64,000 nt of DNA, from positions 38,471,931 to 38,535,930 of the forward strand of contig CM053326.1 in assembly GCA_028583605.1 (NCBI GenBank), given 5' to 3'. The translations under genes and the position numbers were made by a program. Each line of letters starts with the position of its first letter. The stretch's first letter is position 1. Origin of the DNA: Dastarcus helophoroides (taxonomy: Eukaryota; Arthropoda; Insecta; Coleoptera; Bothrideridae). Under the pieces are notes generated by a model. The model was given only the letters and a program-made list of their open reading frames with translations, was not told the DNA's origin and made no database searches. Shown here one piece after another: positions 14,696 to 60,839 of this stretch.

Positions 14696-14701
14696 TTTAT
14701 T
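14696..14701 (-). terminator. AATAAA overlapping the ABCG stop codon
   Basis: On the minus strand the stop TAA is embedded in CAATAAATA, so a canonical hexamer overlaps the end of the CDS. It is probably too close to be the functional poly(A) signal, but no better one was examined. Confidence 0.3.
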
Positions 14702-15044
14702 GACTAGACAATTGCTTTCTTAAAGTACAATAGGCGACGATCCGCAATATCACAAAATTTAAAAACAAAACCAGAACGTCGTTCCAATAATTAGCGTGGG
14801 TCATTCCAATGTCTTTCAGTAAAGTTTCTGGCGCTTTATAATGACAATATTCAACGTCATCTGGACAAGGTATTGGTGCTCTGTTAAAACCATAGATCGC
14901 TTGTACTAATCCTTCGAAAGCATAACTTAAGTAGGAAATGTATGACAAGATAAACATCGGTTTGGACATATGATTATACATAATGAGAAATCCTGCCAGC
15001 AGAATCATAAAAGCTGTTATTACAGCTCCAAGGAATGTCCCATT
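14697..15044 (-). CDS. ABCG exon 11 (last transmembrane helices, stop)
   Basis: It encodes [19 protein letters not shown], then the conserved [11 protein letters not shown] segment, the extracellular cysteine cluster (CPDDVEYC) and a final membrane helix, ending with TAA at 14699-14697. The acceptor is TTTTACAG. It enters in phase 0, which matches exon 10 only if the extra base in exon 10 is ignored. Confidence 0.92.
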   Translation of the reverse strand, partial: NGTFLGAVITAFMILLAGFLIMYNHMSKPMFILSYISYLSYAFEGLVQAIYGFNRAPIPCPDDVEYCHYKAPETLLKDIGMTHANYWNDVLVLFLNFVILRIVAYCTLRKQLSSQ

Positions 15045-18000
15045 CTGTAAAAGAATTATATATTTAATATGTAGGTAATTACTGTGAATAATATTTGCAA
15101 CTAACAAAGGTTTTCATGATAAAAAGAGCATCATAAATAAATGCATTATGAAATATAATGTGAAAAAAATTTGTAAAAACCTTGTACAAACAAAATAATG
15201 TAAAGGAACGAAATAAATGAAAATTTGGTTTTCTCTACTGATTTAAATTTTTGCGAAATTTCGATTGTAATCTTTTTTTTTTTTCGTAAACGTATTTTCT
15301 AAAAAATTTCGAATATTTCACTTAATTCTTTTTCATAATTCCGAATTTAAACTCTAAATTAAGGCTTTTTCTAAACATTTTAACCTTCTTCGAAATTTCC
15401 ATATCAATCTATCTTAACATTTCTACTTCCAATGTAAGTTCCAGTGGCGTGTTCTTCATGAAAGCTAGGGAAACACAGCTTCCCTTACAAAATGAAAATG
15501 TCCATGTTCATTCTATTTTATAACCTTTTTTTTCACACAACAGTTCCACTATTTATTAATATTAGTAACGCTTATGAATCGAAATTTAACAATTGTGTCT
15601 GTGAAGTAAAAAGATTCGACTTATTTTTCACATAAATAATGGGAATTTATTTGTGTACCAATTCTTAAGGAGTGGGCGAATCGAATTTTAATTGAAAATG
15701 TCGACTTTTTTCAAAACTGTATTTTTTTAATGTCGAATATTTTTAGAATTTTAACTTTTTTTGAATAATACCTTTTTTTTCACACAACAGTTCCACTATT
15801 TATTAATATTAGTAATGCTTATGATCGAAAATTTAACAACTGTGTCTGTGAAATAAAAGATTTAGCTTATTATTCACACAAATAATGGGAATTTATTTGT
15901 GTACCAATCCTTAAGGAGTAGGCGAATCGAATTTTATTGAAAATGTCGACTTTTTTCAAAACTGTATTTTTTTAATGTCGAATGTTTTTAGAATTTTAAC
16001 TTTTTTTGAATAATACCTTTTTTTTACACAACAGTTCCGCTATTTATTAATATTAGTAACGCTTATGATCGAAATTAAACAATTGTGTCTGTGAAATAAA
16101 AGATTCAACTTACTTTTCACATTAATAATGGGAATTTATTTGTCTACCAATTCTTAAGGAGTGGGCGAATCGAATGTTATTGAAAATGTCGACTTTTTTC
16201 AAAACTGTATTTTTTTAATGTCGAATGTTTTTAGAATTTTAACTTTTTTTGAATAATACCTTTTTTTTCACACAACAGTTCCACTATTTATTAATATTAG
16301 TAACGCTTATGATCGAAATTTAACAATTGTGTCTGTGAAATAAAAGATTCAACTTATTTTTCACATAAATAATGGGAATTTATTTGTGTACCAATTCTTA
16401 AGGAGTGGGCGAATCGAATGTTATTGAAAATGTCGACTTTTTTCAAAACTGTATTTTTTTAATGTCGAATGTTTTTAGAATTTTAACTTTTTTTGAATAA
16501 TACCTTTTTTTTCACACAACAGTTCCACTATTTATTAATATTAGTAACGCTTCTTATCGAAATTTAACAATTGTGTCTGTGAAATAAAAGATTCAACTTA
16601 TTTTTCACATAAATAATGGGAATCTATTTGTGTACCAATTCTTAAACAGTGGGCGAATCGAATTTTATTGAAAATGTCGACTTTCTTCAAAACTGTATTT
16701 TTTTAATGTCGAATGTTTTTAGAATTTTAACTTTCTTTTGAATAATTTAACTTTTTAAATTTAAATTTACTATTGAATATTTCGACTCCTGAAAATTTAG
16801 GCATTTCAAAATTTTATCTTTTTCAAAACTTCGATTTTTCAAAACTTGGACTTTTTTTTTAAACTTTAAGCTTTTTGTCGTAATTTTAATTGAAAATCTT
16901 GATCTTTTCAAAATTTTGATTCTTTTTAATAAAATTTTACTTTTTCTTTAAATCTAACTTTTAGTTAGTAGTACAGCTTCGACATTTCAAAAGTAATCTA
17001 TTTTTTCAAAATCTTTGACTTTTTCTCGAAATTCAAATTTACTTTATTGTGTAAATGCCGCTCTATTTAAAAAGAAACTTTTAAAAAGAATTTTTTAAAA
17101 AAGTTATACTTTTCAAAATGGTGATTTATGAGAATTTTTCGACTACTTTTTTCAAAAATTTAGGCTCTCTCACAGTTGAATAATTTTGATTATTTCTCAA
17201 AATTTCGATTTTTATGTCATCAATTTCGACTTCTTTTTTCGATTTTTTTTTGAAAAATTCGACTTCTGCTGAAAATTTGAACTTTTTTTGAAAAATTCGG
17301 CTTCTTTGAAAATTGCAAATATTCCGAAAATTTTAACTTTTTTTTTAAATTTCGACCCTGTTTCAAATTCAGGTAGCAAAATTGACACTTTTTCAAAATG
17401 TAAGCCTTCTCTTGCAATTCTGACTAAAAATTTGTACTTCTTTCAAAATATTTACTATTTTTAATTTTTGAATTTTTTTCAAAAGTCGACTTTTTACGAA
17501 TTACAACTTTTTTTTCAAAAATTTACTTTTTGTTGAAAATTTGAACTATTTATTTGAAAAATTCAAGATTTTCCAAAATATCAACTTTTTCTCAAAAATA
17601 TACATAAATAATTTTTTTGAAACCTATTTACTGAAAATACTGACTTTTTTGAAAATTAAGACCAAGAAATTGAAAGTAACCAAAATGTCATCTTCATTTT
17701 TAAATTTTGACTGAAAATATTTGCAAAAATTTCACTTTTCTAAAAAATCTTGGCTTTTTTAAATAAAATATACTCTTTTGTTCGACATCTTTTCTTACGT
17801 TGAAAACTGACATTATTGCAAATTTCATTTTTTGCAAAAATTGAGTTTTTTGTGACGTTTTCGATCACTTTTCAAAAATGTCTTAGGTTTTTCCAAAATT
17901 TATTTTTTTGTTTGAATTTTGATGTATTTTTGAAAATATTGATTTAAACGTTTCGATTTTTTTTGAAAATTGGGCTCTTTTTTCGAAAAATTACTCACAA

Positions 18001-21000
18001 TTTCTCAAAACTTTAATTTTTTCCCAAATTTTCAAATTTTTCTCCAAATTTCGATTATTTTATAGTCTTTAACTTTTTTAAATTTCGGTTTAATATTAGA
18101 AAATTGAAATACAAAATCTTGTCTCCTGAAACCAAGAAAGATTAAAAAACACAACAAAAGTTCCTCTAACGCGTTTCGATAGCCAAGCTATCATTTTCAG
18201 AGAAGAATTCACAATCTTTGAAGATAACCAAGGACCAGTCCTGTTCCGCCAAAATAATAAATAATAGTAAAAATTTCGACTTTTTTATCAGATATTAATA
18301 GAGGTATTGCTTTTTCAAAATTTTGACTTTTTTGGTTGATATCGACTTTTTTTATTGGAAATTTCGTTTTTTTTTAATATTTTGACTTTTTTAATAATCT
18401 TGAGTGTTTCCTGAAATTTTTAATTAAGATAAAAATTTCGACTTTTTTGAAAAATTGGTTTCTTCTACAATTTAGAAGTTTTTCCCAAAATTTTGACTAT
18501 TTTATAAAAAAAATCAGTTTTTTCAAGATTTAAACTTTTGTCGAAATTTCGACTTTTTTGAAATATTCACTTAAAAATTTCGACTTTTTTGAAATTTTGG
18601 ACTTTTTTGGAAAAATTCGAATTTTTCGAAATTTCAATCTTTTCCTAAGACTTCCACTATTTTCACTATTGAACTTTATTAACGATAAAAGCGCAACAAA
18701 ATTTTAAAAATTTTACAAGTTTTCGATAAATATTTGCTAACACCGGACCAGGTTTCGCATCACTGCATCATCGGCATCATCGAAAATTGGTGGTGGTGGA
18801 ATTTTATAAATTTTGTTGTGTTTTTATCGTTAATAAAGTTTAATAGTTATGAATATCTATAAGTAAATTATATTATTTTTAGTTTTCCAGGGATCTTGAA
18901 CTCACTCTTGACCACCAAACATATTTTTATATTATTCATATTACATACATATACATGATCTTTTCAGATACTTACAATTGGATTCACAAGTGTCCCCAGT
19001 AGAATTCCCATACTCGAAGCTATAAGGAGCAACCAAAATAAGCACGGAAAAAACCATTATAAATCTAGACAGACTTATTGGTTGTGCGCTAAGAAAATAA
19101 GATGTGGAGATGTAAGCCAAGCTGAAAACAACCTGTAAAAATTTAAAATGTAACAATAACGCCATTGTGTTTCAGAAAAATAGCTCTTACTTGAAGAGGA
19201 ATATCTGCTATTAAAAAAGCGATGTAATAGGTTTTCAAATTATACCAGTTGTTGAACCTTTCCTTGCGAATTACCCCTATTTCAGATGGAACTAAAAGAT
19301 ATATCATTAGTATAATAAATCTAAATCAAAAAATCATCGTACACTTAAGAACAGCTGGCATGAGTGACGTATAACATAAGTATACTGCACTGATCATTAA
19401 AAAGCCAACGTTATTAAAAACTTTTGAACCATCATCTCCTACGTTCCGATAGGTAACTCCCAAAAATATTCCTACCATAATATGTAGAAAAAATCGTAAG
19501 AATGATATCGTCTGTAAAAGAGGAAGGCGATAAGATTTTGAAGTCAAAAAAATACTTGGAATCAACTTTCATGTTTACAAAACAATTAGCCCACATAACC
19601 TGAATTATCAAGCATATTTTTATTTATTTTATGAATGGTATTTTTTCCTCGAAACCTACTAACCTATATTTAAGCAAAATTTATAGCGAACTATATCGCT
19701 TTTACTGCCATTAAAATATAATGCAAGCATAATTAGATTGATAACTAATAATAAATGTGATAAATTGTAAAAATCCATTATTTTTTTACACAACGCTGAA
19801 CGATATATGTGTTATTTCCTCATTCCCGTTTTTTTTTTACTTAATAAGTCGAAAGAGCACTTACCCAATCCCTGTATATTTGTACATACGCCCTTTTTAC
19901 AAGGACTTTCAATCTGTGCCATTCTGATGGGTGATACTTTCTTGTTCCTGCGATAAAACTTTGTTCTTTATTTAGGGGAGGTTTGCCATTTTTTGCCAAT
20001 AAATCCTCATCTGCAATAAATATAAACTACAACTGTTAACCATGAAATAGAATTTTTTGGTGCTTTAAAAGCTAATGAAGCGGGAAAGATCATGACATAT
20101 TAATCTGACTATAGACCAAATGACCAGTTCTGGATAACTAAATCATAAATTTAATTTAGTACTAGGTAATTATTATTTGTTTAGTTTTGCAAACTAAGGA
20201 AGTATTTATCAAGATTGTCGTAAAATAATGGATAATGTTCAGAAAGTATGGAAACATGTATGTTTCATAAAAACATTATAAAAACATCCCTTTGATCTAT
20301 TCCCATTGATTTGTTTTGTATTTTGTCACCTTAATTTTATACAGAGTGTTTTATCCATCGCATATTTGGATAGAGTTCTTCTTTACAAATACGGCGATAT
20401 AAAGTTTGGAAAGCCTATCTATAATGGTAAGGATTGTACAGCTTAAATAATTTTCCATTGGATTCTAATGCACAAACCAATAGATTTGAACATTTATTAG
20501 ATTCGAAGTTTGGAAACCAAATACCGATTTCGATCTTGTTAGATCTCGTCAACTCGAATGCTAACAAATGTTCCGACAAGTAAGCATTCGAGTTGGATAT
20601 ACCAAACTGACGAGATCTAACAAGATCAAAACCGGTATTTGGTTTCCAAACTTTCGAATCTAATAAATATTCAAACCTATTGGTCTGTGCATTAGAATCC
20701 TCCTCTTCTGGGAACTTTTTCCTAGAAAACAACCGCTTCGCTAGGTGGCAGTGTTTCAACTGTTGGTAGTTCAGCTACCTATACACTATACACGCCTGGA
20801 GGGCTGCATGAATTTGTAGTCTAGGTTGCATTCTACTTGCATATTCCATTAGATGTTAACTTATATTTAGACTTGTGGATGGTGGCAAATTGAATATTTA
20901 GGTTTAAGTGATTTTTTTGTAATTTCATTTAACTTTATTTTTGTGTTTAAATCTTTTTAATTGCAATAGGAGCAGTAGAATTTATTCCAGTTATAGATTT

Positions 21001-24000
21001 CACCAAAAATATACCAGATATATAAGCTTAAATCCGCTGTTTTTTAGTAATAAAAACACATTTGTTTTGAATAGAAAGCAAAAAAGAATTTTATTCAAAG
21101 TGCTTTCCCTCGCTAGCTATACATTTTTCCCATCTCTCGGGCAATTTGTGAATACCACGCCAAAAGAATTCCTTATCTTTTGAGGCAAACCACTCGTCCA
21201 GCCATTTTCGAACGTCTTCGTAAGAATCGAAGTGCTTTTTAGCGAGTGCGTGGCCCATCGACGAAAACATGTGATAGTCAGAAGGAGCCAGGTCTGGCGA
21301 ATAAGCGGGATGAGGTAACACCTCCCAGTTGTCGTGTTTCCAGGTAATTTTGGACCAATTTCGACGTGTGCGATGGTGCGTTATCGTGGAGGAAAATCAG
21401 TTTGTCATGTCTTTGTTGATAGCCAGGCCTTTTTTCACGTAAAGCACGGTTCAATTTGATCAGCTGTTGGTGGTAGCGTGGGCATCTACAGTTCATCAAC
21501 AGCTCGTAGTAGATAATACCCTGCTGATCCCACCAAACGCACAGCATCGTCTTCCGTCCAAATCGATTTGGGCTTGAGGAAGATGTTGATGGTTGGCCGG
21601 GATCAACCCACGATTTCTTGCGTTTAGGATTCTCGAAATAAATCCATTTCTCATCGCCAGTCACCACACGATGCAGAAATGACTTTCTTTTTTGTCTGGC
21701 AAACAAGATTTCGCATGTGTTTTGGCATCGCTCCATCTGCCTATCGTTCAATTCATGGGGTAATCATTTTCCAATCCTTTCGACCTTTTCCATGGCACGT
21801 TAAAAGCATGGAAATGACTGGTTGAGTGGCACCTAACTACTCGGCAAGCATTTTTCGCGATTGGGTATCGTCCTCGTCCAAAAGACCCTATAATTCATGG
21901 TCCTCGACCTTTCTGGGCCGATTTTCACGCTCCTTGTCACTCAAGTCAAAATGGCCGTCTTCGAACCAGTCTCTGCAAGTTGTTTCCGATAAAGCACTGT
22001 CACCATAGGTTTCCACAAGCATTCGATGTGATTCGGCAGCCGATTTCTTTAAATTGAAGCAGAAAAGCAGAGCTTCCGCATATGCTCTTTTTTTTGGCAC
22101 AAAACTGGACATGATTACACAAAGAAAAATGTATGTTGTATGAAATCGCTTATGATGTGCACTGATTGATGTGAACAGCTGTCGAACTCATACAAAAACA
22201 GTAAGACATTTCCATGGCAGCAGGTAATACGCTCACAACGTCATCTATGAGCAAACAGCGGATTAAACAAATATTAAATCCACCAAGGTAAGAAGGTAAA
22301 ATGCAATATGGGTCTCAGTCATTTGAAATACAAGAGTAGATTAGTTAATTAGTAGATTAAATTAATAACTTACATTTTGGACAATTTGCACTGCTCCTCC
22401 ACTTAGTGGCATGTACATGTTTTACCAGATGATCGGTACATTCCCCATATTCTCCATTTGCTACTTCTAATACTAAAACAAAATAATCACTAATTTTTTT
22501 ATCCAGAAATTATAAAAGAAATGTAACCATACCCAAATATTGACCCATGCTTATCAAGAGAATATGTTTGGATGGGAATGGGCAAAGAATAATTTTCAAG
22601 TATGTTATAGATCCAATATAATTAAACCATCAATTATGTATGAAGAATGTATTTGGACAGTCAAAATGAAAAAAATAAAATAAAGAATAATTTTTATCAT
22701 ATCGGGTTTCCTTTAGGAAATATTCAAGTATTTTATACAAGCATCTAATATTGTTTTGGAGATATCAGATGTCAGTCTCCGAAAAAAATTCCGAAATGGT
22801 CTCAACTTATCAACAAAATCTTTAACCATTCTGGAGGTAATTTCCAAGGTTCTCAGTACACCTAGTATTGCTTGCTGTTGCTGTAGATTAAAATTCACTT
22901 ATTTCCATAAAATGTCCTGATCTGTTATTACACTTATTACAACATTGAACTTAGAAAAAAAACATTACATGTTAGTTTCAATTAGGTTCGAGATAAACTC
23001 TACCTGAGATGAGAAGTTCCTAGGTTTATGCAAAATTCATTGCCTGGCTCTACCTACAACAAAGCTTGCCATTGCTTTTTCAATTTGTAAACCAGCTAGA
23101 TTTACTTTTGATGGTCTCGATCACTGTCTTCCCTTTTCGGGATCTGTTTCTCTCTACTCGGTAAGGTTTGTCAACATGTAAAATACAATACTAAAAAAAT
23201 TAAAATTATTTCCAATCTCAGAACAACATAATGCTTTACAAACAATATCAGAACTAATAATTTTGCCTGTTTTGAAAATATTTTCTTTCCATATATAGCC
23301 GGAACCTGTTGACTATACATCAATGCCTTTAATTAGGAGCTGTTTTGGTTGTGATTATTGTTGGAAATCACATTCAAAGCGCGAGAGCAAAAATCTATTG
23401 TCATATAAAGTAGAATATTGGACACAACAAGTTAGGCCAACACTAGAATACTGTTCTCATGTTTGGAGTTCAGCCCCAAAACACATTTTAGCTCTCTTGG
23501 ATTCAATTCAAAGAAGAGCGATTCGCCTAATTGATGACGAGAGTCTGACCGATTCTCTCGAAACACTAGAGCACAGGCGTATGGTTGGTGACTTGTCTTT
23601 TTTCTACGAGTACTACCACTGAAGATGCTCTCAGAAACTAATAGGATTGATCCCCCTAAGGGCAAGATTCTTGAGGCGTACTAGACAGTCGGAGACAGCA
23701 AATTCCTGTGCGGTCCAGCTTGACACAATGAGGACTTCTGTCTACGGAGACTCTTTTTTCTATAGAACTTCCAAGTTATGGAACTTGTTACCGAAAGGAA
23801 TTTTCCCCAAAAAATACAACCTATTCGGTTGCGGTTCATCGCCATCCTACTCGCATCCTACACACAGTGCTTTGAAAGCATAATGGGGTTACCCTTTGCG
23901 AGTGGATTAAACTTAAAAAAACTGTGTTTCTGTGTATCTTTTACGAACTGAAATCTGATACGGTACTTAAACTTATTTGGATGAGATAGGTCGATGATTA

Positions 24001-27000
24001 ATTCTAAGAACCCTTTTTTCTGAACATAGGTTTTAAGGGATTAATGTTTGACATGTATTTTAGCAGCGTATCATGAAATAGACCAGATGTATTTGGAATT
24101 ATTACGAAAAGATTTCGTTTCGACTGTGAAGTTGAGATTATAATTTCGTCACGACAACACAAACCTTCCGAGACCTCTAAATAAACAGTGGCGACTCGCA
24201 GCCACAACTAATGGGGATGCTGCGACAATGTTTAGTGTTTTAAAATGTTCAAATTTTCTAAAGAAAATTTCGTATTTCAAAACGTTACTTTTCGAAAATT
24301 TTAGTTATTTTCCAAAATATAAAATTTTTGAAAAACTTAAAAATTCTGACCATTTTGTTAATTTCAATTATTTTTAAAATTTTGACATTTTTTGCAAACT
24401 GTCGATCCTTAATTTGAAAACTGTGATTTTTTTTAAGACACATTTCTTAAAATCTTTTATTAATTTCCGACTAATATTTCGTAAAATTTCGACTCCATTT
24501 CAAAACTACGACTTTTTTTTCAAAATTTCGACTCTTTTTGAAACCTTTTTTGAAAGGTTCAAACTTTTTTTAAAATTTTATTTATACATTTTTTTAAACA
24601 TTTCCAATTAAATCTCCGACTTAAAAGAAAAGATCCTTTTTAAAATTGAACTATTGAAAATTTCGACTTTTTTCAAAATTTTGTCTTTTCAAAATTTTTT
24701 GATAATTACGAATTTTTCGATAATTTTGAGTTTTCTACAATATTCAAAAAACTCAGCTCCTTTGAAAATTTGATTAAAACTTTTATTTTAAATGTCGATA
24801 ATTTTTCCAAAAATTCGTCTTTCATTGACATTCCCAAAATTATCGGAAATGTCGACCATTTTAAAAATTAAAAATTTTTTTCGAAATCCTTATCTTCTTT
24901 TGAAAATTTGACTTTCTATGCAAATTTTAAAAGTTTTTAAGATTTGACGTTTTTAATTTTAGCTTTATTTTTTAAAAGTTGTAATATTTTTTTTAACTTT
25001 ACATTTTTTTGAGAAAAACCCGAAATAACACTCAAATTTAAAAAAATTAATAACAAATATTTCTATTTTTAAAATTGCGCAAAGCTTTGACACAAATTTT
25101 TAAAAAAATTTGCATTTTATATAAAAATAAATTGTCAAAATTTTAATCACAAAAAATTGGCTTCAAGCTGGAATATTTGATTTCCAAATGTCTCTGGAAC
25201 TTCAAGATTACTAGAAAAAAATTAAATTAGAACAGAAAATTATTAATGAATTTCTTTCAAAATTTTAATTAATTTTAATTTCGAAATTTTGGGACTCTTC
25301 TAAAAATGTTCATTATTTTTCTCCACAATTTCAATAATTCCCACTTTAAAAGTCGAAATTATAAGAATATTTTTGACAATTAATTTATTTCAAAAAAACT
25401 TTTTTTTCTTTTATTCCGAAACTGTTATTTTTTTTGAAAAATGTTGTTTACTAATAAGGAACTTTTTCTAGAAATATAATCTGCTTTCTCTTGAAATTTT
25501 GAGATTAAGTCTTAAATTTCAATCTTTTTTTTATCGAAATTTAAATTTTAAATTTGAAGTTTTCAAGAGTAAATTTAACATTTCTAGAAAAATTGGAAAT
25601 TCCGATTCAGAATTTTCTTTGGTCCCACAGTAGTAGTGATTTTTTTAAAGAAATATCAAATTGTAAAAAAGGTTGAAATTAGAAGATTCATTTTTTCTTG
25701 AAATTTCAATATTTTTCCCTAATTTTGCTTATTTTTATGCAGATTTCAAGTTTATTTTCCCTAAACTTATACCTAACAATTTTTAGTTTCTTATCAAAAT
25801 TACAAAATAAAATAAACTTTAAAATATTAAAATTTCGTTAAAAAACTTTTAAATTCTCAAAATAAATTAGAGAAAAATCAAAACTTCTACAAGAAAAAAT
25901 ATTTCAAGGATAAAATCTACAGTCGAAATTTCAAAAAAAATTCTTGGACGAAATGTTTAGAGAAAAACACAAATTGCATAGGAAAAAAGCAACATGTCTT
26001 AGAAAAAAAATCGAAATTTGAAAAAAATTTGAAATATCTTTACAAAAAAATGGACATTTTTTGTTTTCTCAATATGTTGAAATTTTTATAGAGCTTTCAG
26101 GGTTTTTTTCAAAAATTTTTTGTCAAAACTACAAAATAAAATGAACTTTAAATTGTCAAAGTGTCGTGAAAAAACTTTTAAAATTTTAAATTTTTAAAGC
26201 AATTTAGAGGAACACAAAGAAAAATCTGGAGAAGTTGGAATTTCTAGAAGAAATTTTAAGAACAACACTTTCAGGAAAAATGGAAATTTCGAGAAAATTT
26301 TATTTATAAAATATTTAAGAAAAATGGAAACTGCAGAAAAAAATCAAAATTTCCTAAAAAAAATCGACATATCTGAAGAAAACCCAAAATTTTCGAACAA
26401 AATGAGATTTGAGGTAAAAAGTCGAAGATACCGTATTAACTTATTTTTTAGAGAAATAGTAAAATGCAAGCTGAGTTTGTTGGATTTAGATTTTTTCTTG
26501 AAATTGGAATTATTTTCTTAAAATGTTGACATTTTTAAAGAAATTTGAGTTTTTTGATAACATTTTAATTCCTGCTCGAAATATTGATTTCTTTCTCAAA
26601 GCTTTTACAAAAACTAGTTTTTGACAATGTGATTTTGACAAATGACCAATTAAATGTTCTGTAATGAAACAGTTAAACGTGCTTAAAATTGAAAATATCT
26701 ACAACCGCAACCATAGTTTCGGCCTTCCTTGGCCTCATCAGCATGGTACGGTGGTTGTATACACTTCCAACTTAAAGCCGTTAGTCAGTCGTATAAGTAT
26801 CCAAGAGAGCAAACCTCCATTGGGTGTGATTTTGTTCAAAATTAAAAATAAAATAAATTTTTAAATGTCGTAACCCTGTAAAAGAAACCTAAATTTTCTA
26901 AAAAAAGAAATCACAGAAAATTTAAAATGTCTACAAAAAATTGTGTACTGAAAAGTGTTCAGAAAATTTGGAGAAAAAAACTCGTAAGCGAAACTGGGGG

Positions 27001-33000: not shown

Positions 33001-36000
33001 ATTTGTGCTAGTGCATTTGAAAACATCCTTTAGATATTGAGTGATTAATTTAGTCAGCTAAAATCCGAGGCAAAGTTGCATTTAATTTATTAATTTCATC
33101 AAAGTATGTCTTAACTACAAATTAATCTAGGTTTAAAAGAGGGCAGGTCATCTGACATAGGTCATTTATAATTAATAAAGTTGTAAAACTTTTTCCATTG
33201 ATAATTTATGATTTTTATCAGTATCCAACATTCTTTTAGAAGTGTCTGTTTAATTTAATAATCTTTGAGTATTTGCAAATGACTTAATACTTTTAACTCT
33301 AAATGATAAATCTGAATATCTGTTCCTTCTTTATGACAAAATCCAGGTTTGAAAACTATCAAAAGTAAACTTGTTTTTAATCAATAATAAAATTTACTAT
33401 GATTTGTGCATAGTAACATCAATTCCATTTGTGGTTACAAATGAATTTCACATGACTTATCAATGTACTAACATATTCTTATCTCTATAAAAACTCTACA
33501 AAATGCTATAAAAGTAATAAAATATCAATTTTTGTCCACACGACACTGACCTATTCTAAGAAGGAAAAGATCATAACTTTGTGCACAAGAAAACTATGAC
33601 AGTTACATAATAAGTCATAAAATTGTCCCAGATTTTCAAGTTCAATACTTCCTGCAGAAGTTTCTAGACACAACTTTGCATTACCTCACCGATAGATTTT
33701 ACTTTCTCTGTTCCAACATTTATACGTTTCCGCCCTTCCTTATTAGGTTATTAATGCACGTTAAATAATAAACTGAATAGTGTAGGAAAATATTTATAAA
33801 TGCATGCATATTTAAAGTGTACGCTGTAAACCTATTTTGATATTATTACATTAAATTAAGTCAATTAAACGAACTGCGATTTAAGTTCATAAAACAAACA
33901 CAAACTTACGTCGTAGGTTCATCTAAAAACATGATCGGCGAGTTATCTATTAGTTCTAAGGCCACGGAAAGTCGTTTTTTCTGACCCCCAGATAACCTAC
34001 TGCACCATGTTCTTTTGCTTAAACTCAAACCTAATTGGTCCAGAATACTGTCAATCTAAAAATTGGAGTTACAACAATCAACCATTTAAGGCCCTTTGCA
34101 GCCCAAACTAACCAAAAAGTGCTTCTTTTTAAGCGAAACGCTCACTCCCAATTTGAGATCGGCCGCGATTTTCATTATTTCTTGGACGCTTAACAGAGGT
34201 GGTAAATTATCTTCTTGTAAGATATAAGATGATTTTTTTCTATATTTTTCTACACCCACTGTCTCTTTATCGCCAACGCAACTTTTGACCGTACCTTGGA
34301 CACCAGTTTTTCTGAAACAAATCACGTTTTAATAGTCATCACGTTTTAGCAGAAGTAACTCGAACATATCGGTTGATAAATGTAAGAATAGTATTTTTAA
34401 TTGCAAAAAATTACATTAAATGTAGAATCTACAGGGTTTGTTACAAACTAGCCCGTTAAAGTTTCCAAATAACGCCATTACCTAGGCATTAAAACTATCT
34501 TAAGTTCACTCTAAGTATATTGGGAAATACTTGTTAAAAAAAAATTCAAAAATCAGATATAATCAATGCAGTTGAATTGCATGTCTATAAACAATTTTAC
34601 TGTGAAAAATCACATATAATGCGATTCGTATTTTATAAATATAAATGAAATGAATAAATTATTGCGGTTATACATACATAAAAATTGGTACTTACTGGAA
34701 ACCGGTTAGTATATTCAATAAGGAGGTTTTGCCTGCTCCTGATGGTCCCATTATGGCTGTTAATTCCCCAGCTTTGAATTTTCCAGAAATTCCATGAATA
34801 ACTGTCTTCTTGGCTGCAAAAAAAACAAAATTACAAAAATGAGAATAATTACTACATATACGGCTTTAGATCTGATTATTAATAGTTTATCCCAACCAAT
34901 GTGGTGGTGTTAGATTATTTCTAAATTTATTCAAGAATTTCTATTCAAATAGAGTTATTAGTGAAAAAAAATCGATAACTTAACACACGTGCAGGAAAAA
35001 AAATTCCAACATGTTCAGTTTCGGTAAAACTAAGACAGAGAGGAGTTTTGAGAGAATGGAGTGGCCAAAATATTTCTTCTTTTTATATTAACACGTTTTT
35101 TATTAACTCACTTGGTTGTCCATGATTGAAAATAGAGAAAATCTATGTTTGACATCTGTCTGCTCGATGCAAATTGCGCTGGATCTTAAAATAACTTTCC
35201 AATAAGCCAGATACTTGAAACTTTGCTTTGGTTACAATACAATATTTAATCCGATCATGAAAATTATTGTAACGAAATGTAAATTGCAGAATTTAGTACA
35301 TAAGAAAAGTTTCTAGAAGGATCTGATAAGGGAAAGCCGCCGAGATAATGAAGCAAACGGCAGATAAGCGTTCCAGACATTTCGGCCAACGATAAACCTT
35401 ATCTGCTCAAAACTTCTAGAACTCGGAAGCGAAAACTATATAAGGCGGGCGCCTTTCCCTCGAGTTAGTTAGTTAGAGTCAGTCACTGTAATTAGTGAGC
35501 TAGTAGTTAGAAGTAAATAAGTGAGTTCATTATTCTGTTGTAGTGTTCCGAGTTTAGTTTGGTAATAAAGTGGGAATTATTCAATTCGAACCGATAAGCT
35601 CGCAACGTCTGGTGTCAGAAGCGTGATTATTATTGTGCTTGCAGTTGACTTTATCTCGGACGTTTTAAACTATTAAATAGTTATACGAGGCGCGTCAAGT
35701 AAAATCTTGAACATTCTAGTACGCTTTATGGATACGAGATTAAGATCGGTCAAAATGGAACATTTGCAAGCTATATTAGCAATGATAACAGACAACAAAG
35801 AACAAGAGGAAGAACGAAGAGGACAAGAAAAAGAACAGAAGGAAGAACAAAGACGACAAGAGGAAGAACGAAGACGACAAGAAAAAGAACAGGAGGAAGA
35901 ACGAAGATGACAAGAAACAGAACAGAAGCAAGAACGAAGACGACAAGAAAAAAACAGGAGGAAGAACGAAGACGACAAGAAGACAGAGAAGGAATTCAGA

Positions 36001-39000
36001 CAAACAAGAATTGCATAGTCTGTTAGCAAATATAACTGAAAAAATGGCAGAAGACGTTGCAAAAATGAGAGAAGAAGTGAAAGAACAAATTACAGGAATG
36101 AAAGAAGAAACGCAAGAAAAGATTGGCGAAGTCAAAGAAGAATTCAACAGCAAGCTTCTTTATATGGAAAATGCAACTCAGAAAAAGTTCAACAACATCG
36201 AAAAAGAGACGAAGAAGTTGCTAAGTGGACAAGTTACACAACGTGAATCCGAAAGTGTACCCGCCATTTCTTCCCAAAAGGTAAAACCTCCGACCTATGA
36301 TGGAAAAACATCGTTCCAGGCCTACAGAATACAGTTCGAAGTTGCTGCTAGAGCCAATCGATGGACGGAAGACGAAAAGGGGACCTCAATGGTGATTTCC
36401 CTGCGCGGAGGAGCTCTGGAACTACTCCGAGCTCTATCTGACCACGAACTAGCTAACTTCAAAGATTTAGTTAGGGCTTTAGGGCTGAGATTTGGAGACC
36501 ATCAGTTGCCACAAGTGGCCCAGTCGCAACTAATAGTAAGGAAGCAGAAAAGTGATGAAACGCTGCAAGAATTCGAGGCTAAAGTAAAAAGACTGGCTCA
36601 TGTCGCTTATCCAACAGCACAAACTGAATTTTTGGATCTTTGCACAGCTAGAATTTTCATAGAAGGAATAAGAGACCCAGAAATCCAGGGAGTGATACGC
36701 TTGTCAAACTTCCGAACATCGAGAGAGGCACTGATTAGAGCGTTGGAGGTGGAAGCTGCTTACAAGGTTTCGGAGCCAGAGATGTCACGAAGAATGAGAA
36801 AGGCCGACATTAAAGAGGCCGCGAATAACCTCGATATCACGAGCCTCATAAGCGCTAACATAAGGGAAACAAACGCGGACATGGATGCTAACATGAAGGA
36901 AATGAACGCTAGCATGGAGAAAATGAATGCGAACATAAGTACCAACATGAAGGAATTGAACGGGAGCATCAAAGGATTGCTGGGGGCTCTCAAAGGTAGA
37001 ACCTGCAGAAACATAACATGTTACAGCTGTGGCAAACCGAGGCATATCAAGAAGGACTGCAGGTCAACCCCCAAGAAGTCGACAAGCCCCACAGTAATAA
37101 AACAACACGTCGAGAAGAAGAACTCACTAGCCAATGTTAAGAAACCAGTCGTCAAAACTCTTCCTATCAAACAGATAAATAGGACCAAGGAGAGTTTGAT
37201 GGTGGAAGCCAGCGTAGATGGAAGGGATGTGCAGGCAACAACAGGAGTCAAGGTTATTATGGCACGCAATCCTCAAGCAATCCGTGACTGGCCAAGACCC
37301 AAAGATAAACAAGAGTTGAGAAAGTTTCTTGGGTTATGCACCTATTACAGAAGATTTGTGAAAGGTTTCGCGAACGTCGCTGCGCCATTACACCGACTAA
37401 TGGAAGGAAGAACGCCGTATGTCTGGACTCCCGATTGTGATACCGCTTTCCGAAAACTGAAGTTCGCCTTGTGCGCAAGCCCTATCTTGGCTTATCCTCA
37501 CCAGAATGGAGAGTTCGTGTTAGACACTGATGCCAGCAAGGTCGGCATTGGAGCTGTGCTGTCCCAAGTTCAAGGCGGTGAAGAAAGAGTTATTGAATAT
37601 TACAGCAAAATCCTGAAGAAGCCGGAGAGGAACTATTGTACCACCAGGAAGGAACTTCTTGCGATAGTAAAGGCCGTGGAACACTCCCACAGGTATTTTT
37701 ATTGGCAAGAATTCCTCATCAGAACAGATCATTCGGTGCTTTCTTGGTTACTCCGAATGAAGAACGCAGGGGAACAGACGGCTAGATGGTTGGGAAGGCT
37801 ACAAGAGTATCACTTTAAGGTGCATCATCGACCGGGACGACAGCATAACAACGCTGCCACTTTGTCCAGAAGACCTTCTGGGGATTGCAAATACTTTAGT
37901 CGAGTTGAGGACCATGAGGACCTGCTGAATATAAGAGTTACGTTTGTCCAGCCAGAAGACGGATGGACTGTTGAAAGTCTTCGAGAGCTACAGAAAAGCG
38001 ACGCTGATATCAGACCCATGTTGGAATGGAAAGAAGCTGGAGATAAACCAGAATGGCAAAAGGTTTCCGACAGAAGTCCAGCTCTTAAGAATTTTTGGAC
38101 TCAATGGAAATCCCTCCAGGTAGAAGACGGGGTGCTGAAGAGGGCATGGGAAAGCGCGGATGGAAAGCACGTCAACTTGCAGTTGGTGGTGCTTCAGGAG
38201 AAGATTCCACAGGTCGTGTGGGAGGCGCATAATGGAACCTCTGGTGGACATCTAGGGATGAACAAGACCCTGGAGAAGATTCGGAAACAGTTCTATTGGC
38301 TTAACTGCAGGGAGGACGTCGAGCGGTGGTGTCGGAAATGTGTCACCTGCGCTGCATCCAAGGGTCCCCGTACAAGAACCAAAGCAGTATAATGTGGGAG
38401 CACAATTTGAAAGATTTGCAATCGATGTGGCAGGGCCCTTCCCAATATTAGACCATGGGAACAAGTACATCCTGGTAGCTATGGATTATTTCAGTAAATG
38501 GCCTGAAGCTTACGCCATCCCGAACCAGGAAGCTTCCACAGTAGCAAGAGTTCTTGTGGACAACTTCATCTGTCGATTTGGTGTTCCCTTGAAACTACAC
38601 TCGGACTAAGGAAGGAACTTCGAATCGGGAGTCTTTCAAGAGATGTGCCGTCTTCTTGGAATAAAGAAAACTCGAACGACACCTCTTCGTCCACAGTCTC
38701 ATGGAATGGTGGAAAGATTTAACAAGACCTTGGAGGAACATCTTTCGAAGGTCATTTCCAAGCATCAGACAGACAGGGACCGACATCTACCACTGTTTCT
38801 AATGGCCTATCGCGCGGCAACTCATGAAACTACGGGTCACTCTCCGGCAAAAGTGATCTTCGGGAGGGAACTGCGGCTTCCGTGTGACTTGATGTTTGGA
38901 TCCCCAGAAGAGACTCCCAGAGAGACGATGGGTTTCGTAGACGACTTGAGGGAAGCGATAGATCAACTTGGCGACGGACCGGATGAAGACAAGGTATGAC

Positions 39001-42000
39001 GTGAATGCCAACCATGGTGGTACAACCCTCAGCGAAGGAAAGGAGTTTCGCCGAGGTTTACGCCATCTTGGGAAGGGCCATACAAAGTGCTGAAGAGAAT
39101 CACCGACTTGATATGCAGGATCCAGCGTAGCCCCAGGACTAAGATGAAAGTGGTACAGCTGAATTGACTTTGCAAGTATAGTGGCGAAGTGACTGAATGG
39201 AACTGATCGGGATGATCAGTCTTAAGGAGGGGGGGGGGGGCAGTGTAACGAAATGTAAGTTATAGAATTTATTACGTAAGAAAAGTTTCTAGAAGGATCT
39301 GATAAGGGAAAGCAGCCGAGATAATGAAACAAACGGCAGATAAGCGTTCCAGAAATTTCGGCTAACGATAAGCCTTATCTGCCCAAAACTTCTAGAACCC
39401 GGAAGCGAAAACTGTATAAGTCGGACGCCTTTCCCTCAAGTTAGTTAGTTAGAGTCAGTCAGTGTAATTAGTGAGCTAGTAGTTTCAAGTAAATAAGTGA
39501 ATTCATTGTTCAGTTGTAGTGTTCCGAGTTTAATTTGATAATAAAGTTGGTATTATTCAATTCACGTGTTAAAAATCAATTCGAACCGATAAGCCCGCAG
39601 CAACATTATATATTGCGGAAACAACTGGTTTTCGAGAAACAAGCCTAACCAGCGTTACCACCCCTACTGATTTATGGATATACCGATTTGAAGCCTAGTC
39701 TACGGATATATCGATTTACGACAAAGCCTAGTAATTTTTTAAAATCCCTTATTTCAGTCATGCTATGCAATATTTTGCTGGAAATGCCGAAAACGTATGA
39801 CATTCATTGCAAAAAATAAAAAAAAACAGATTCCCCTATTAATGTCACCTTATGTAAACTTTATGCTTGGAGGCTTAAGGGGGAGATCCTGGAATTTGTC
39901 AGATGAAAAGAGTGGAAAAAATCATCAGAGTGGGCGATACGCGTTAGCTTTCATACAATAGAGTGAAGTGGCTCTCAAGATATAATAATAACAAACAAAC
40001 TTTAATTTGGGAAACGTCGATGTATCACCATTAAAATTTACTTAAATTGATTTATTTAAAACGAAAAAATAACTTGTATATCATTAATAATGCGAGATGT
40101 AATAACCTTCTCATAAACATGTATCAGTATTTAAATGCTTATGAGCACTAAATGTGGAATGTTATCCATTAATTTTTTATTCCAAATAATTTAACATTTC
40201 AGCCACTTTAAGTAACTGAGGCTACTAGGCTACTAAAGAAGGAAAGAAAAAAAAAATTCCTGCTCCTAAAATACTACTTTAAGATTGTTTTTAAGTTTAG
40301 AGTTTTTGTGATATGGCAATTTCGTTAGACGCAGCATTAGTATTGGTTCTAACAGCATAAACAATTTCAGTCTCGATTAACATAAGCTGTCTTCCCAATA
40401 AAAGAAAGAAAAGTGATCATAATTTTGGTACCAACTAATTTCTAGGAAATCAAATATCGTAGCAAAGTCTCGTTACAAGTAAAAATCAAATATCGCCTAC
40501 AATACATAATGTGAGCTCATGATCCCCATAAATCATAAATAGTTTATAGTAAGAGACAAAAAGTTGAACGATCTATTCCGCGTTCTACCCTTTGACCTTA
40601 GACAATGCTATTTCATTCTTCTATCGATAAGGAAGTGACCCAAATTTGCTAAAAAAAATATGATTTGTTTAGACACTTAATGCATATAATAATTTTGTCC
40701 CAAGTTACGTAATTCTTGTATTGCACATTCCAATTATCATATTAATAAAACGTGAATTTATCCCATTTAGAAGAATTTGTAAACATAATATTTACTTTTT
40801 GAATTTGTTTAACATAATTTAATATATTAATAAGTACTAATGCATTTGTGATTTAAGTGGGTCATTTGGAAAAATCAACAATTTTTCTCGTTTCGACACA
40901 AGATGATTTTTATGTAAATAATATTTTTCAAGTTATCTACTTTTAATTTGTATGGGAATACTATTATTACGGTGTGATTGTAAAAAAGTCAAGGTTTAAC
41001 GGATTTTCGTGTTACAGCTTAGATGAGTTTTAATTCTACTGTTCGAAAACTATACGTCTTGATATTTTAAAATCATGCAATTTTTGAAGGTCATATTCCT
41101 TTCGTGACTCACTTCTTAGACATACATGTTTTACGTGCAATGTTTATGTAGTTGGACACATTTTTTCCGTTGTTGCTCATAAAAACAAGTTGATTCTCGT
41201 CACTTGTTAGAAATAATGAAAACCGGAAGATTAAGATCGAATGGGCATGTTTTCCTTGAAACACCGGAGACTCTGCTTAAAGCAGTACCTAAAGTCTGAA
41301 AAAATATTCGTCTGAAACAAGTTTGCGAATCGAATTGAGGGACAGACGACGCTTACTAAAAGCGTTATCCAATGAAGCCACAAGCATATCAATAAAATTA
41401 CTTCTGCAAACTTGCACTTCTGCAGTTTCAGTACTTTATTAGTCTCTTGGCCTAAAGGCCTAATGGAACCAGTTTTCACTAGTCTGGTTTTTAGCAACAT
41501 CGTATTTTTGACTAAAAAATATTAAACTATTAAACTAAATCTTTAATGGAAGCCCAATGAGTTAACTGATCTAGTCTACTTTTTTTTTAAAGTTTAATCC
41601 ACTCGCAAAGAGTAATCCCATTATGCTTTCAAAGCACTGCGAGTAAGATGCAGAAACAAAGATAGATGAACCGATGAATCAATGAACCGATGAACCGCCT
41701 TCTTAAACAAGGATAGGTTGTAATTTTTGGGGAAAATTCGTTTCAATAACAAGTTCCATAACTTGAAAGTTCTATAAAAAAAAAGGGTCTCCGTAGAAAG
41801 AAGTCCTCACTGTGTCAAGCTGGGCCCCACAGGAACTTGCTGTCTCCGACACTGTCTAGTACGCCTTAAGAATCTTGCCCTTAGGGGGATCAATCCTATT
41901 AGTTCCTGCAAGCATCTTGCATGATAGTACTTGTAGAAAACCAAACGCCTGTGCTCTAGTGTTTCGAGAGAATCGGTTAGACTCTCGTCATCAGTTAGGC

Positions 42001-45000
42001 GAATCGCTCTTCTTTGAATTGAATCCAAGAGAGCTAAAGTGTGTTTTGGGGCTGAACTCCAAACATGAGAACAGTATTGGCTAGTGTTGCCCTAACTTGA
42101 GCTTTGTATAGTGTTAATAGCTAATAGCTGATGAGATGTGAAGTACTCTTTAGCTCTAAAAAGAAAACCTAGCTTCTGAGAGGCGGATTCGGCAATGGCG
42201 GGCACATGATCGTCCCAAGAGAAGTTAGTGCTCGCATTCACTCCTAGGACAGATAGATTAGATCTCATCGGAAGGATTTTACCGTCCATTAGTGTGTTTG
42301 TTGCATTATCCCTTGATGTTTTCTTAGAGAAAACTGCAGCCTGAGTTTTTAAAGCGTTGAAGTCGACCAAATTGTTCTTACCCCCTTCCAGAATAATCTC
42401 GAGATCCCGATTAATCGTCTGTATCAGCTGTTCCCTTAGTCGATCTAAAGCAGCGATAGATAATGGTTTGTCAGAGAAAAAAGATGACACAAGGTCACTA
42501 ACATCTGCGTAGCTATCCATCATAATATGTCATTTCCTTTTAAAACAAAACAAATACTTCAAAAATATGAGCAATTCCCTATATATTGGGTTGGCAAGAA
42601 AGTAATTTCGGTTTTGCGTTATGAAAATAACACATTTTTTTAATATAAAGAATATACATTAATTAATTATATATTTTACATTTTGTTGCCATCTTTCTTG
42701 CGGCTTCAGGATTTCGCTCTTATAGAATTTCTGATTTTTCTAAGAAAAAACTCTACCAAGTAAGATTTAAGATCATCATTTAGGAAATTTTTACCATTCA
42801 TAGACTTTTGCAGACTACGAGATGAATGGTAATCAAACGGTGCTAGGTCAAAGCTGTATGGGGAATGCGACATCACTTCCCAACCAAGCTTCAATAATTT
42901 TGCATGAGTTACCAAAGATGTGTGAGGCTTAGCATTGTCATGGTGGAACGATTTGGCCAATTCTGGCATTTTTTCTTTGATTGCTTTATCCCGTTTCATT
43001 CGCTGTTGACAGTACACATCTAAATTGATTGTCTGGTTCCTTGGAAGCAGCTCAAAATACACAACACCTTTATAATCCCACCAAATCGACTGCATGATCT
43101 TTTTTTGATGCAATTCAGCTCTTGATGTGGTTTGTGCTTAAACCATGATCGTTTTCGAATGATGTTACTGTAGATGACCCATTTTTCATCATCAGTAATG
43201 ATTCTTTTCAAGAAGGGATCATTTTCATTGCGCCTAAGATCCGTATTGTAAATATTGATTTGTTGTGTTAAAGGAATTACTTTTAATTTATACGGAACCG
43301 AGCTCTTTAACGAGTCCAAGACATTTTAAGTGATTCTCAATGGTTGTGTGATACCTCATCGAAATCTCTTGCACAGTTATATGACGATTCCCTTTAATAA
43401 TGGCATTAATTTGATTATTATCAACTTTAGTAGGTCGACCAGAACGTTGATCATCTTTGAGTGAAACATCTCCAGAACGGAGTTTCTTAAACCAATTTTG
43501 ACAAGTGCGTTCTGTTATGCAGTCACCACCATAAACTTCACATATTTCTTTATGAGCCTCTGCAGCTTTCCGTCCTTTGCGGAAATAAACAAGTAAAATA
43601 AGCCGAAAATGTTCGTATTTGCACTCCATATTAAAATTGACCCTCAACCATCAGCTACAAATGAAATCTCTCATCACGTGCTTCAAAATAAACCTCGATC
43701 TGTCTGATATCAAATTTCAAAACATAAAGAACATCACCCCCAAAATTCATTCAAAAAAATTTAAATAACGCTGTCTGTGTGAAAAATAAAAACGAAATGA
43801 CTTTCTTGCCAACCCATATATTTAGAATTTCTATCTGAAAATATGTTTTAAGATCTGGACTAAAAGAAAAGGAATCATATATCAATTGCATAATATGGCT
43901 GATTTTACTAATTAAAGACAACTAATTTATCGTAGACGGTTCCTTCCAAAGCGTTATGGTTTTTGCATTTAGGGTGGATTGCCTAAAATTAAGCCAGCAC
44001 CTAGGTCTCCCCTATTTTTTACATGAGAACCGTCATCAAGTTTTTGCCCTGGCTCGGAAAAATCGTAGATCCGGTGCGGCCCACATTTAATACCTAATGC
44101 GAATTTACCCATATATTTCGGTTAATGGAATATTCACAAGTATTTTGAGCAGAAGAATAATAAGTAGGTGAGAGGAGTCAAATATGTGTGACAATCGATC
44201 AAGACTATGGAAAGAAAGATCTTGTTTGTATTTCACTCATAAAATGAGGTGAAAATCCTTTTAATCAGATAAATCTTTCTTCGATCCTCTCTGCTCGTGT
44301 ATTTCGGCGTAAACCCGGTCAAGGTCAATTTTGTTTCGCTTGTATGAGATAAAAGTAAAAATTTATAACAAGCACTGAAACTTAAAACATGATATGAAAC
44401 GGATTGGACAGTAAAATCACCTTTAGACAAGGAATTTCTTATCTAACCTTGTCTAACAAAGCACCATTCTTTCTTGAATGGACCACTACGAAATTTCCTA
44501 CTCCTTTTTTGGGTGGTATGACCAGATGGTTAAAGATATTAAGACAATATTTAAACCAATAGTGGTCTATCCGATCTGCAACTGGAGGAGCGCACTACAT
44601 TTGGCATTTAATATCACTCCGAATTTCCTCAGAGGTTACTGGTTGACGCGATTCCTCTGCTTTTATCATTAACGACCAAAAGGTTTGAAACTGCGTCAAA
44701 GTTTATTGTATTGAGAAGCCCAAACCTTGGGAATTTAGATCTCACTTGAGGCTGGTAGTAGTGTTTAAAAAACAGCAACTTTTAGCATCCTTCACTACCG
44801 CATTTTTGGAAATTATCAGCGTCTGGTTATACTGACTGAGCGTTATGGATATTGTGTTCCTTGATTACAACATTGAATTAAAATATCCGCTTAAAAAATC
44901 CAGATCAAATCTATATATTTCTCTCGTACGTGAAAATGGCCGGCAAGAAATTCGAAAATCATTTTTCCCACTCCCACCCGTATATTCACTGTTTTCTTTA

Positions 45001-58440: not shown

Positions 58441-59457
58441 GTGCGTCATTATTGATTTCGAACGTAGATTACAATCTGCGTCGAAAATTATTATTATTAT
58501 TAAATGTTGACCAACACAGTAAGATTCAATGAAACAAGGCACGGTAACTTGCCGAATATGGAATATAATCAGTGGCGTGTCATGACTTTATAAATGGGGA
58601 AGTTAACTGGACAGCCTTTTAAAAGATTATTTACAATTTTGCTTTTAACTGATTACATTTTGAAGCCCTAAGCAATCAAAATGTCGTATTTCGATTAGTC
58701 GAAATTTCGATTTAAATTCACAATGTCAAAATAAATGTCGAAATAGAAAAAAATTAAAGATTTTAATGCAAATCCATTTGTCCAAATTTATTTTAAAAAA
58801 TTCCAGAATTTTAAAATTCAAGTTAAATTTTGAATATTATTTCTTTAATGCTCAGTTTGGTTTTTGGACTACAGTAAAACTCCGCTTAACGCGGGGGTTA
58901 CGTTCCAACCAAGTAGAACGTTATACGAAACAGCGTTAGACGAGGTAATCTCTTCATGTACACAATGGGGTTAGGGGAAAACGGGTGTAAAAAGCAAATC
59001 ACCATTCATGTTTAGATCATTCGGATTCTTCTGCATTTCCAATTTTCTGCTTTCTCATCAAGAAGGCGCCTAATGTCATCTGTATTTTTCTTGAGTGCTC
59101 TATAAGAAGTTGTCAACATGTGGAAAAGGCATCCATGGCACCTTGGCTTGCCTTTGAACTCCTATCAAAAGCTGCTTTATTTTCAATAAATTGGTTCATA
59201 ATTTCTGTTATAGTGGCTAACTTGGTTTTTAGAAATGCCGTTGACATTTTTTTTTTCTGCTGAGATAATGAGCCTTGTATATACAAATATATACAAGTTT
59301 TTTAAGATGCAATTGAAATCTAATTTCATTAGAATCTAATGAAATCTTGACTGCAATTGCAAAGTTCACATAGATGAGGCAAAGCTTGTATCACGGATTG
59401 CATCGCAACATCCATAAAAACAAACGTCCTCGGCGTGACTTTACTTTCATTAGTTTT

Positions 59458-59650
59458 GACAAATGACCAATCAAATGTTCTGTAATTAAACAGTTAAACG
59501 TGCTTAAAATTGAAAATATGTACAACCGCAACCATAGACTAATTTCGGCCTTCCTTGGCCTCATCAGCATAGTACGGTGGTTGCATACACTTCCAATTTA
59601 AAGCCGTTAGTCAGTCGTATAAGTATCCAAGAGAGTAAACCTCCATTGGG
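59458..59650 (-). repeat. Family-1 hammerhead-bearing repeat, copy B
   Basis: Same block order as 26630-26832, with an extra segment ACTAA at 59539-59543 that restores the ribozyme cleavage region. Inserted into the pogo-like element. Confidence 0.82.
59521..59584 (-). ncRNA. Hammerhead ribozyme, apparently complete
   Basis: Minus strand, 5' to 3': distal stem I strand CAACC (59583-59579), internal loop, proximal stem I ACUAUG (59573-59568), core CUGAUGA (59567-59561), stem II GGCC-AAGGAA-GGCC (59560-59547), GAAA (59546-59543), a very short stem III AUUAGU (59543-59538) ending in the triplet GUC (59539-59537), then UAUGGU and GGUUG closing stem I. Every conserved core base is present. Predicted cleavage is between 59537 and 59536. 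A very short, almost palindromic stem III is typical of hammerheads in retrozymes and Penelope-like elements, which may need a dimer. Activity is inferred, not shown. Confidence 0.82.
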
Positions 59651-60839
59651 TGACTTGTAACTGACTTTTAACTGTTTATTACGCAAACATTTTCGCTACA
59701 TGCTAATTGAAGCATTCTTCTCTGCTGAGATAATAAGCCTTGTATATACGAATATATACAAGGCTTATTTTTTTTTGTTCTTCAGAGTCACTATTTTCGA
59801 TATTTTTGTGTTATTCTTGATCCACTATTTCCTTGGGCTCTTCATCAATATTTCTTTGAGATCTTTCACATTTCTAAACCTGTTTGTTTCGCTAATTCGA
59901 CTATTTCGTTCATATCAACGGAGTTTCTAGTGTCACTGTCCTCGTTTTGATCTTGCCAAATATTTTAACGCACTTCGTTCAAACATTTTTTCGTAACCTC
60001 ATTAAAAAAAATTATACATGTATGTTGTATCTACTTTAAATTTAGGGAAAGCCCAATCGTGCCTGCAATTTTCAGGTAATTTCATTATTCCAATAAAAAA
60101 ACGTTAAACCGAAACAGCGCTAAACGGAGAAGCGTTAAGCGGAGTCTTACTGTATTTTAATTTTTAAATTTTTCTCTTTGAATTTGAATCTTTACTCAAA
60201 ATTTCAAATTAACATTCTAAATTAAAAACTCAAAATTTATGTTAAATAATTACAAAAACCATCTTAATTACAAAATAGAACTGGGGCAAGAATATGTTTT
60301 TTTCCTGAATTTGAAACTTCAACATTTACAGAAAATCTAAATTTAAATAAAATGTAAATTTATTTTCGAGAATGTTAAAATTTTCAAAAAGTCCAAACTA
60401 TCAAAAAGTTGGAATTTCTAAAACAAAGTCGAAATTCCGAAAGAAGTCAAAATTATCAACAAATTCAAAATTTTAAGATAAGTCAAAATTTTTACAAATT
60501 CAAATTTTTTATACGAGTTCAAAATTTCCAGGAAAAGTTGAAATTTGATAAAACGTCAAAACTTTCAAGTCTCAGTTCTGAAAAGTCCAAATTTGCAAAG
60601 AAGTGTCAATTTATAAAAAAAAAGTAAAAATATTTAAAAAATTATAATAATGGAAATCTTGGGAAAAGATTGAAATTTCGAAAAATTTGAATTTTTCCAA
60701 AAAAGTCCAAATTTTTAAAAAAGTCGAAATTTTTAAGTGAATATTTCAAAAAGTCGAAATTTTGACAAAAAGTTGAAATCTCGAAAAAATTGTCTTTTTT
60801 TATGAAATAGTCAAAATTTTGGGAAAAAACATCTGAATT

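Follow-up and report, generated by a model that had tools for sequence, protein, structure and literature searches.

The minus strand at 59519-59587 of the window, that is, of the whole 64-kb stretch of Dastarcus helophoroides DNA analysed here, reads as a hammerhead ribozyme lying in a small repeat. This raises the questions of whether the motif is genuine, what kind of element carries it, and whether it is likely to cut today. The evidence considered below comes from four loci that belong to two families, which we call F1 and F2, all within this one window.

Architecture and rarity of the hammerhead

A sequence-only reading had claimed that one copy of the repeat, hereafter copy B of F1, carries all hammerhead parts in order on the minus strand. 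We located these parts one by one and obtained a match to a strict descriptor, thereby confirming the claim and assigning the motif to type I. Read 5′ to 3′ from 59592 to 59515, the minus strand gives CAACC as outer stem I; after a loop come ACUAUG as inner stem I and CUGAUGA, and then GGCC-AAGGAA-GGCC, GAAA, UUAG, UC, UAUGGU, UGC and GGUUG. In DNA letters, the core CTGATGA occupies 59567-59561, stem II (GGCC/GGCC with loop AAGGAA) occupies 59560-59547, and GAAA occupies 59546-59543 and is followed by TTAGTC, all on the minus strand. Our predicted cut on this strand falls at 59537/59536, exactly where it had been placed before.

The inner part of stem I (ACUAUG/UAUGGU) forms six of six standard pairs, two of which are G.U, and the outer part is CAACC/GGUUG; stem I can be drawn with an internal loop, and loop II has 6 nt. 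Stem III (AUUAGU, 59538-59543, minus) is reduced to one A-U pair over the tetraloop UUAG, and its six bases are self-complementary when two G.U pairs are included (pairs AU, UG, UA, AU, GU and UA). The features of a type I hammerhead (CUGANGA...GAAA, U16.1, H17, an open-ended stem I, and paired stems I and II) were all present in copy B and in one hammerhead of the second family (F2a), and the set was incomplete in copy A of F1, which lacks U16.1, and in the other three F2 hammerheads (F2b-d).

Motifs of this kind were rare in shuffled sequence. The pattern CTGATGAGGCC-N6-GGCCGAAA, searched with up to three mismatches allowed, had two matches in the window, both of them exact, against an expectation of 0.00 from 100 shuffles. 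The strict descriptor, which requires CTGANGA, a stem II of 3-7 bp, GAA, A15.1, U16.1, H17 and at least five contiguous stem I pairs, identified exactly two loci in the whole window, namely copy B and a locus at 3244 (minus, F2a). In 600 dinucleotide-preserving shuffles, it found a mean of 0.0033 loci per window, with a maximum of one. Both real loci have a self-complementary stem III, and none of the 600 shuffles gave such a locus. Among viral contigs, the pattern formed by the copy B core and stem II had 27 exact matches, 21 of which were complete type I or III hammerheads under a looser descriptor that itself had no shuffle control; because these 21 were complete by that descriptor, we regard the copy B core as a good hammerhead marker.

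We also checked the motif against the Rfam hammerhead models, as had been suggested. Hammerhead_HH9 (RF02275) was the best-scoring family for both copy B and F2, with scores of 16.5 to 30.9 bits that all fell below the curated cut-off of 52, which is a detection threshold and not a mechanistic feature. Copy B, when searched alone, reached 20.4 bits against this gathering cut-off of 52, and it was absent from the whole-window Rfam list at E up to 1. A model built from five aligned hammerheads retrieved those five and F2d (49.6 bits), so that five of the six were training sequences, and the next and last match listed had an E of 5.9. Copy B, itself one of the five training sequences, scored 79.1 bits with this model.

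The carrier repeat and a second family

The hammerhead of copy B lies in a 199-bp repeat at 59454-59652 (minus; GC 0.382), in agreement with the earlier description of the carrier as a dispersed repeat of about 200 bp. The other copy, copy A, lies at 26633-26826 (minus), and the two are 94% identical over 199 aligned columns, with seven mismatches in 194 aligned bases and one 5-nt gap. Both copies are single, not tandem (2/2), they have both ends in common, and their GC content is 0.38-0.40; inspection by eye revealed no convincing terminal inverted repeat. Four ORFs across or adjoining copy B gave only sub-cut-off Pfam matches (TPR_XPO7, E 0.021; RNase_H_2, E 0.085), so that F1 has no evident coding sequence. 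The pogo-like transposon named as the host of copy B received no Pfam support in these four ORFs, but this part of the earlier reading may still be true; residual coding-like stretches may resemble a pogo C-terminus. Copy B is also bracketed by a pair of 48-bp direct repeats (59250-59297 and 59715-59762, plus; 92% identical), which contain an internal stem-loop.

The sole gap between the copies removes the bases TTAGT: copy B reads GAAA-TTAGT-CTATGG and copy A reads GAAA-CTATGG. These five bases hold the stem III loop and U16.1, and copy A, in which only a hammerhead remnant is left (26698-26761, minus), is therefore predicted to be dead, with no active hammerhead of the usual kind. The loss may have occurred through slippage between short repeats. 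Copy A can thus be neither counted as a complete hammerhead nor used as independent support for an active ribozyme. A type III reading of copy A (22.3/48.5 bits with the Rfam type III model) was likewise rejected, since its outer stem has two non-standard pairs out of seven and no more than a few bases remain for a stem I hairpin. The stem I change in copy A, cited earlier as a case of pairing kept while sequence changes, amounts to one base (U.G in copy B, C-G in copy A): the pairing is indeed kept, but there is no double compensatory change, and the argument is weak because copy A has lost its cleavage site.

Copy A is flanked by a perfect target-site duplication (TSD), TGTGATTTTG, at 26628-26637 on the left and at 26825-26834 on the right (both plus; 10/10). 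Its score of 10 compares with a 99% quantile of 7.5 and a maximum of 14 among 2000 random position pairs. No TSD was found around copy B, where the score of 3.5 equalled the median of random pairs and rose to 5.5 with wider slack. In the viral contigs, neither a 25-base string from the core nor a 29-base string from the non-ribozyme part of F1 had an exact match; the 29-base string likewise had none in bacterial and archaeal genomes, and copy A had no BLASTN match in phages or plasmids. This is as expected for an animal element.

The second family was delimited by BLASTN of its 376-bp unit (GC 0.40), which matched two loci on both strands. Locus 1 (3152-4039) consists of an inverted fragment (3153-3437, minus) and a tandem of about 1.6 units (3434-4042, plus), and locus 2 (20460-20842) consists of an inverted fragment followed by a plus-oriented unit. 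Both loci have the inverted fragment on their left, and their outer ends are the same. Locus 1 has an exact TSD (11/11 or 12/12), and that of locus 2 is imperfect (9/10 or 10/11). F2 contains four hammerheads. F2a (3196-3264, minus) is intact by the descriptor, with stem III ACCGGU and a predicted cut at 3214/3213; F2b (3762-3830, plus) is degraded, stems I and II each having a single mismatch; F2c (20587-20655, plus) reads AAAA in place of GAAA, so that G12 is changed, and is predicted to be inactive; and F2d (20504-20568, minus), a hammerhead of the inverted arm, has an incomplete stem I. At a relaxed threshold, HH9 matched F2a at 3190-3263 (minus, 29.8 bits), F2b at 3764-3835 (plus, 17.5 bits) and F2c at 20588-20661 (plus, 30.9 bits), and gave a partial match at 20515-20551 (minus, 16.5 bits), each against the cut-off of 52.

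F1 and F2 may be diverged copies of one element, a reading that we considered and did not accept. Aligned locally, F1 and a doubled F2 unit scored 203 against a maximum of 181 in 200 shuffles, but F1 scored 155 with F2a (shuffles 171) and 147 with F2c (shuffles 186), and the non-hammerhead parts of F1 did no better than shuffles, 39 and 37 of 200 of which scored as high. To judge from these alignments, the two families are not clearly related outside the hammerhead. Across the five aligned hammerheads, 48 of 50 pair cells were standard (96%), as against 22-44% with slid partners. Three of the ten pairs differ on both sides with pairing kept, all of them between F1 and F2, in a sample of five sequences from two families that holds few independent events. 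In column shuffles, the number of paired cells, the number of cells with a double change and the covariation score were each reached by 1 in 500; the number of pairs with a double change (79/500 as high) and of further pair types (397/500) did not exceed chance.

Several other repeats and reading frames lie in the window. At 15523-16756, a 244-bp unit is repeated head to tail about five times, with no Rfam match there at E up to 1. An LTR-retroelement-like region at 35268-39543 has an ORF of 867 aa, in which Pfam matched RNase H and integrase zinc-binding domains and, below its cut-off, a zinc knuckle; this ORF is bracketed by 300-nt repeats at 35268 and 39244 (92% identical), and a third related stretch lies at 31767 (63%). 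Pieces of mariner-type transposase were found at 21278-21763 and 42706-43137 (Transposase_1) and at 43291-43650 (HTH_48). The ORF at 14700-15113 (minus) contains an ABC-2 transporter domain, and the one named protein among its two matches is from the ladybird Cryptolaemus (58% identical). A long near-perfect palindrome lies at 7391-7510; the microRNA and lactis-plasmid RNA matches obtained there on both strands were all below cut-off and were set aside as palindrome-like sequence.

Predicted folding and the nature of the elements

In both families, stem III consists of one A-U pair over a tetraloop, and its six bases are self-complementary (AUUAGU in copy B, ACCGGU in F2a). Copy B folds more stably than its shuffles (-28 against a mean of -17.1 kcal/mol, z -3.88, 0/200 as low). 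The minimum fold (-28.0 kcal/mol, nearest-neighbour) is, however, not the hammerhead but a hairpin formed between AUUAG and the core CUGAU. Stems I and II alone give -17.4, and a fold constrained to stems I and II gives -26.3 with the core still paired. Since the preferred hairpin sequesters the core in this way, efficient cleavage of copy B as a single molecule is doubtful. When the units were placed in tandem, the dimer hammerhead fold reached -31.0 against -57.3 for the best fold in copy B, and -25.5 against -44.3 in F2a, in energies that ignore the non-canonical core and loop contacts. These modelled energies speak against easy activity, and copy B, complete in sequence, is probably weak alone.

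We consider it likely that F1 is a short, non-autonomous, non-coding retroelement family whose type I hammerhead has a vestigial stem III, and that F2 is a second such family. The copies are best read as ageing non-autonomous retroelements comparable with animal retrozymes or with Penelope-associated hammerheads. Such motifs had already been noted as known from retrozymes and Penelope-like elements: the motif, its rarity in shuffles, the sister copy, the TSD of copy A and the second family (with a further TSD at locus 1) speak for the comparison, to which the covariation in copy A adds little; the pogo-like host is not established. Against the retroelement reading stand the single F1 copies, the lack of a TSD at copy B, the folding energies, the two covariation measures that did not exceed shuffles, the lack of a Penelope-type enzyme in the 20 ORFs scanned and the sub-cut-off Rfam scores. 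Beyond the motif, its rarity, the repeat, the TSDs at copy A and F2 locus 1 and the decay of the copies, we infer, after the cycle published for animal retrozymes, a life cycle with cleavage, dimer action, circular RNA, RNA-mediated mobility and a helper enzyme. Read-through would produce element RNA, and the hammerhead would cut it, with two RNAs or two tandem units pairing via the self-complementary stem III. A host RNA ligase may then circularise the cleaved product, and the reverse transcriptase of another element would copy the RNA into the genome elsewhere, duplicating about 10 bp of the target.

It is almost an even question whether the family is by now a neutral fossil, that is, extinct, with both F1 copies as relics and no hammerhead in the window cutting today. 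The decay of the copies is consistent with this: copy A has lost U16.1, F2b has stem mismatches, G12 is changed in F2c, and copies A and B differ at seven of 194 aligned bases in addition to the 5-nt gap. The predicted fold of copy B, which hides the core, points in the same direction, but copy B and F2a are still complete by the descriptor. Such a fossil state is compatible with our main reading of what the family was.

It is less probable, though to be taken seriously, that F1 and F2 are fragments of Penelope-like retroelements, namely pseudo-LTRs bearing minimal hammerheads, and not independent retrozymes. F2 has both tandem units and inverted fragments, an arrangement that also occurs in Penelope copies. 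A vestigial helix III and tandem hammerheads have also been described for Penelope-like elements (PMC7761336, PMC6155905). Against this, Pfam detected no Penelope-type enzyme, neither a reverse transcriptase nor a GIY-YIG domain, in the 20 ORFs scanned, 16 of which are among the 134 ORFs of at least 70 aa. Moreover, copy B and F2a come closer to canonical type I, in that an internal loop can be drawn in their stem I, and F1 is only 199 bp long.

Within the retroelement reading, the position at which the plus-oriented part of F2 locus 1 begins deserves mention. This part starts at unit position 314, and the cut is predicted after position 316, a distance of 2-3 nt; at the junction, however, it overlaps the inverted fragment by about 4 nt (3434-3437). 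For a 376-bp unit, the probability that chance places a start no more than 3 nt to either side is roughly 2%, and this is a single case. A more specific, and improbable, form of the idea is that both families keep a dimer-only hammerhead, which would need two RNAs or tandem units and would cut in a concentration-dependent manner, that the F2 start at 3434-3437 is the trace of cleavage before reverse transcription, and that F1 is a SINE-like monomer. If this were true, cutting by the F1 and F2 hammerheads would depend on the concentration of element RNA.

We consider it quite improbable that a MITE-like DNA transposon or a SINE simply picked up the hammerhead and that the ribozyme has no part in mobility. 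The ends common to copies A and B would suit such an element, as would the clean TSD of copy A and the F2 arrangement, in which both loci have the same outer ends and inverted sequence on one side. The picture is nevertheless at odds with the lack of a convincing terminal inverted repeat in F1, judged by eye only, with TSD lengths that differ (10 against 11-12 bp), and with the occurrence of the same hammerhead geometry in two families not clearly related outside it. Finally, chance resemblance to a hammerhead, to which only the Rfam scores under the gathering cut-off would lend colour, is negligible given two descriptor loci against 0.0033 per shuffled window and the existence of both the sister copy A and the second family; the copy B motif is real.

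Comparison with known hammerhead elements

Non-LTR retrozymes of animals offer the closest comparison for our preferred reading of F1 and F2 as non-autonomous retroelements. Their description is one of 150-450-bp units in tandem that have a GC content below 50% and type I hammerheads, with TSDs that exceed 4 bp when present, and analogous repeats are reported from insects among others (PMC7229834). The two families agree with this description in their type I hammerhead, small non-coding unit (199 bp in F1, 376 bp in F2), GC below 50%, TSDs longer than 4 bp (10 bp at copy A, 11-12 bp at F2 locus 1) and weak helix III, the last as in the amphibian copies (PMC7229834). F1 differs from it in that both copies are single; F2 locus 1 has about 1.6 units in tandem. 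The comparison covers four loci in the two families.

The form of stem III has counterparts in several systems. Satellite hammerheads of the newt and the axolotl (HHR_Amex1) likewise have a one-pair stem III with a palindromic tetraloop, and HHR_Amex1, in which a single pair is capped in this way, is described as a poor cutter alone and a much better one as a dimer (PMC7229834). The likeness is one of described form, and the amphibian element is a vertebrate satellite of about 330 bp (PMC7229834). The repeat hammerheads reported from Aedes aegypti likewise have palindromic loops on stem III, and the RNA tested there failed to cleave in vitro (PMC3088659). They share with the present families an insect host, an interspersed repeat and a palindromic stem III/loop III able to pair in a dimer, and the likeness is again by description, with a dimer stem of 10 bp there as compared with 6 bp here (PMC3088659). 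The minimal hammerheads of Penelope-like elements and Terminons also have a vestigial stem III and a proposed dimer action, but according to their descriptions they have no helix III or no loop contacts, whereas stem I here has an internal loop (PMC7761336, PMC6155905).

Among titles and the opening parts of abstracts, we found no literature on hammerhead elements of beetles, which is no proof of absence. The kind of element is already known, and our results leave the knowledge of hammerheads or retrozymes unchanged. They apparently extend the hammerhead-bearing elements of insects by two families, and they provide a complete copy and its broken counterpart as a clean pair, together with target duplications that suggest integration. 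The form of stem III, shared by description with the amphibian and mosquito hammerheads, opens the dimer model to testing in an insect.
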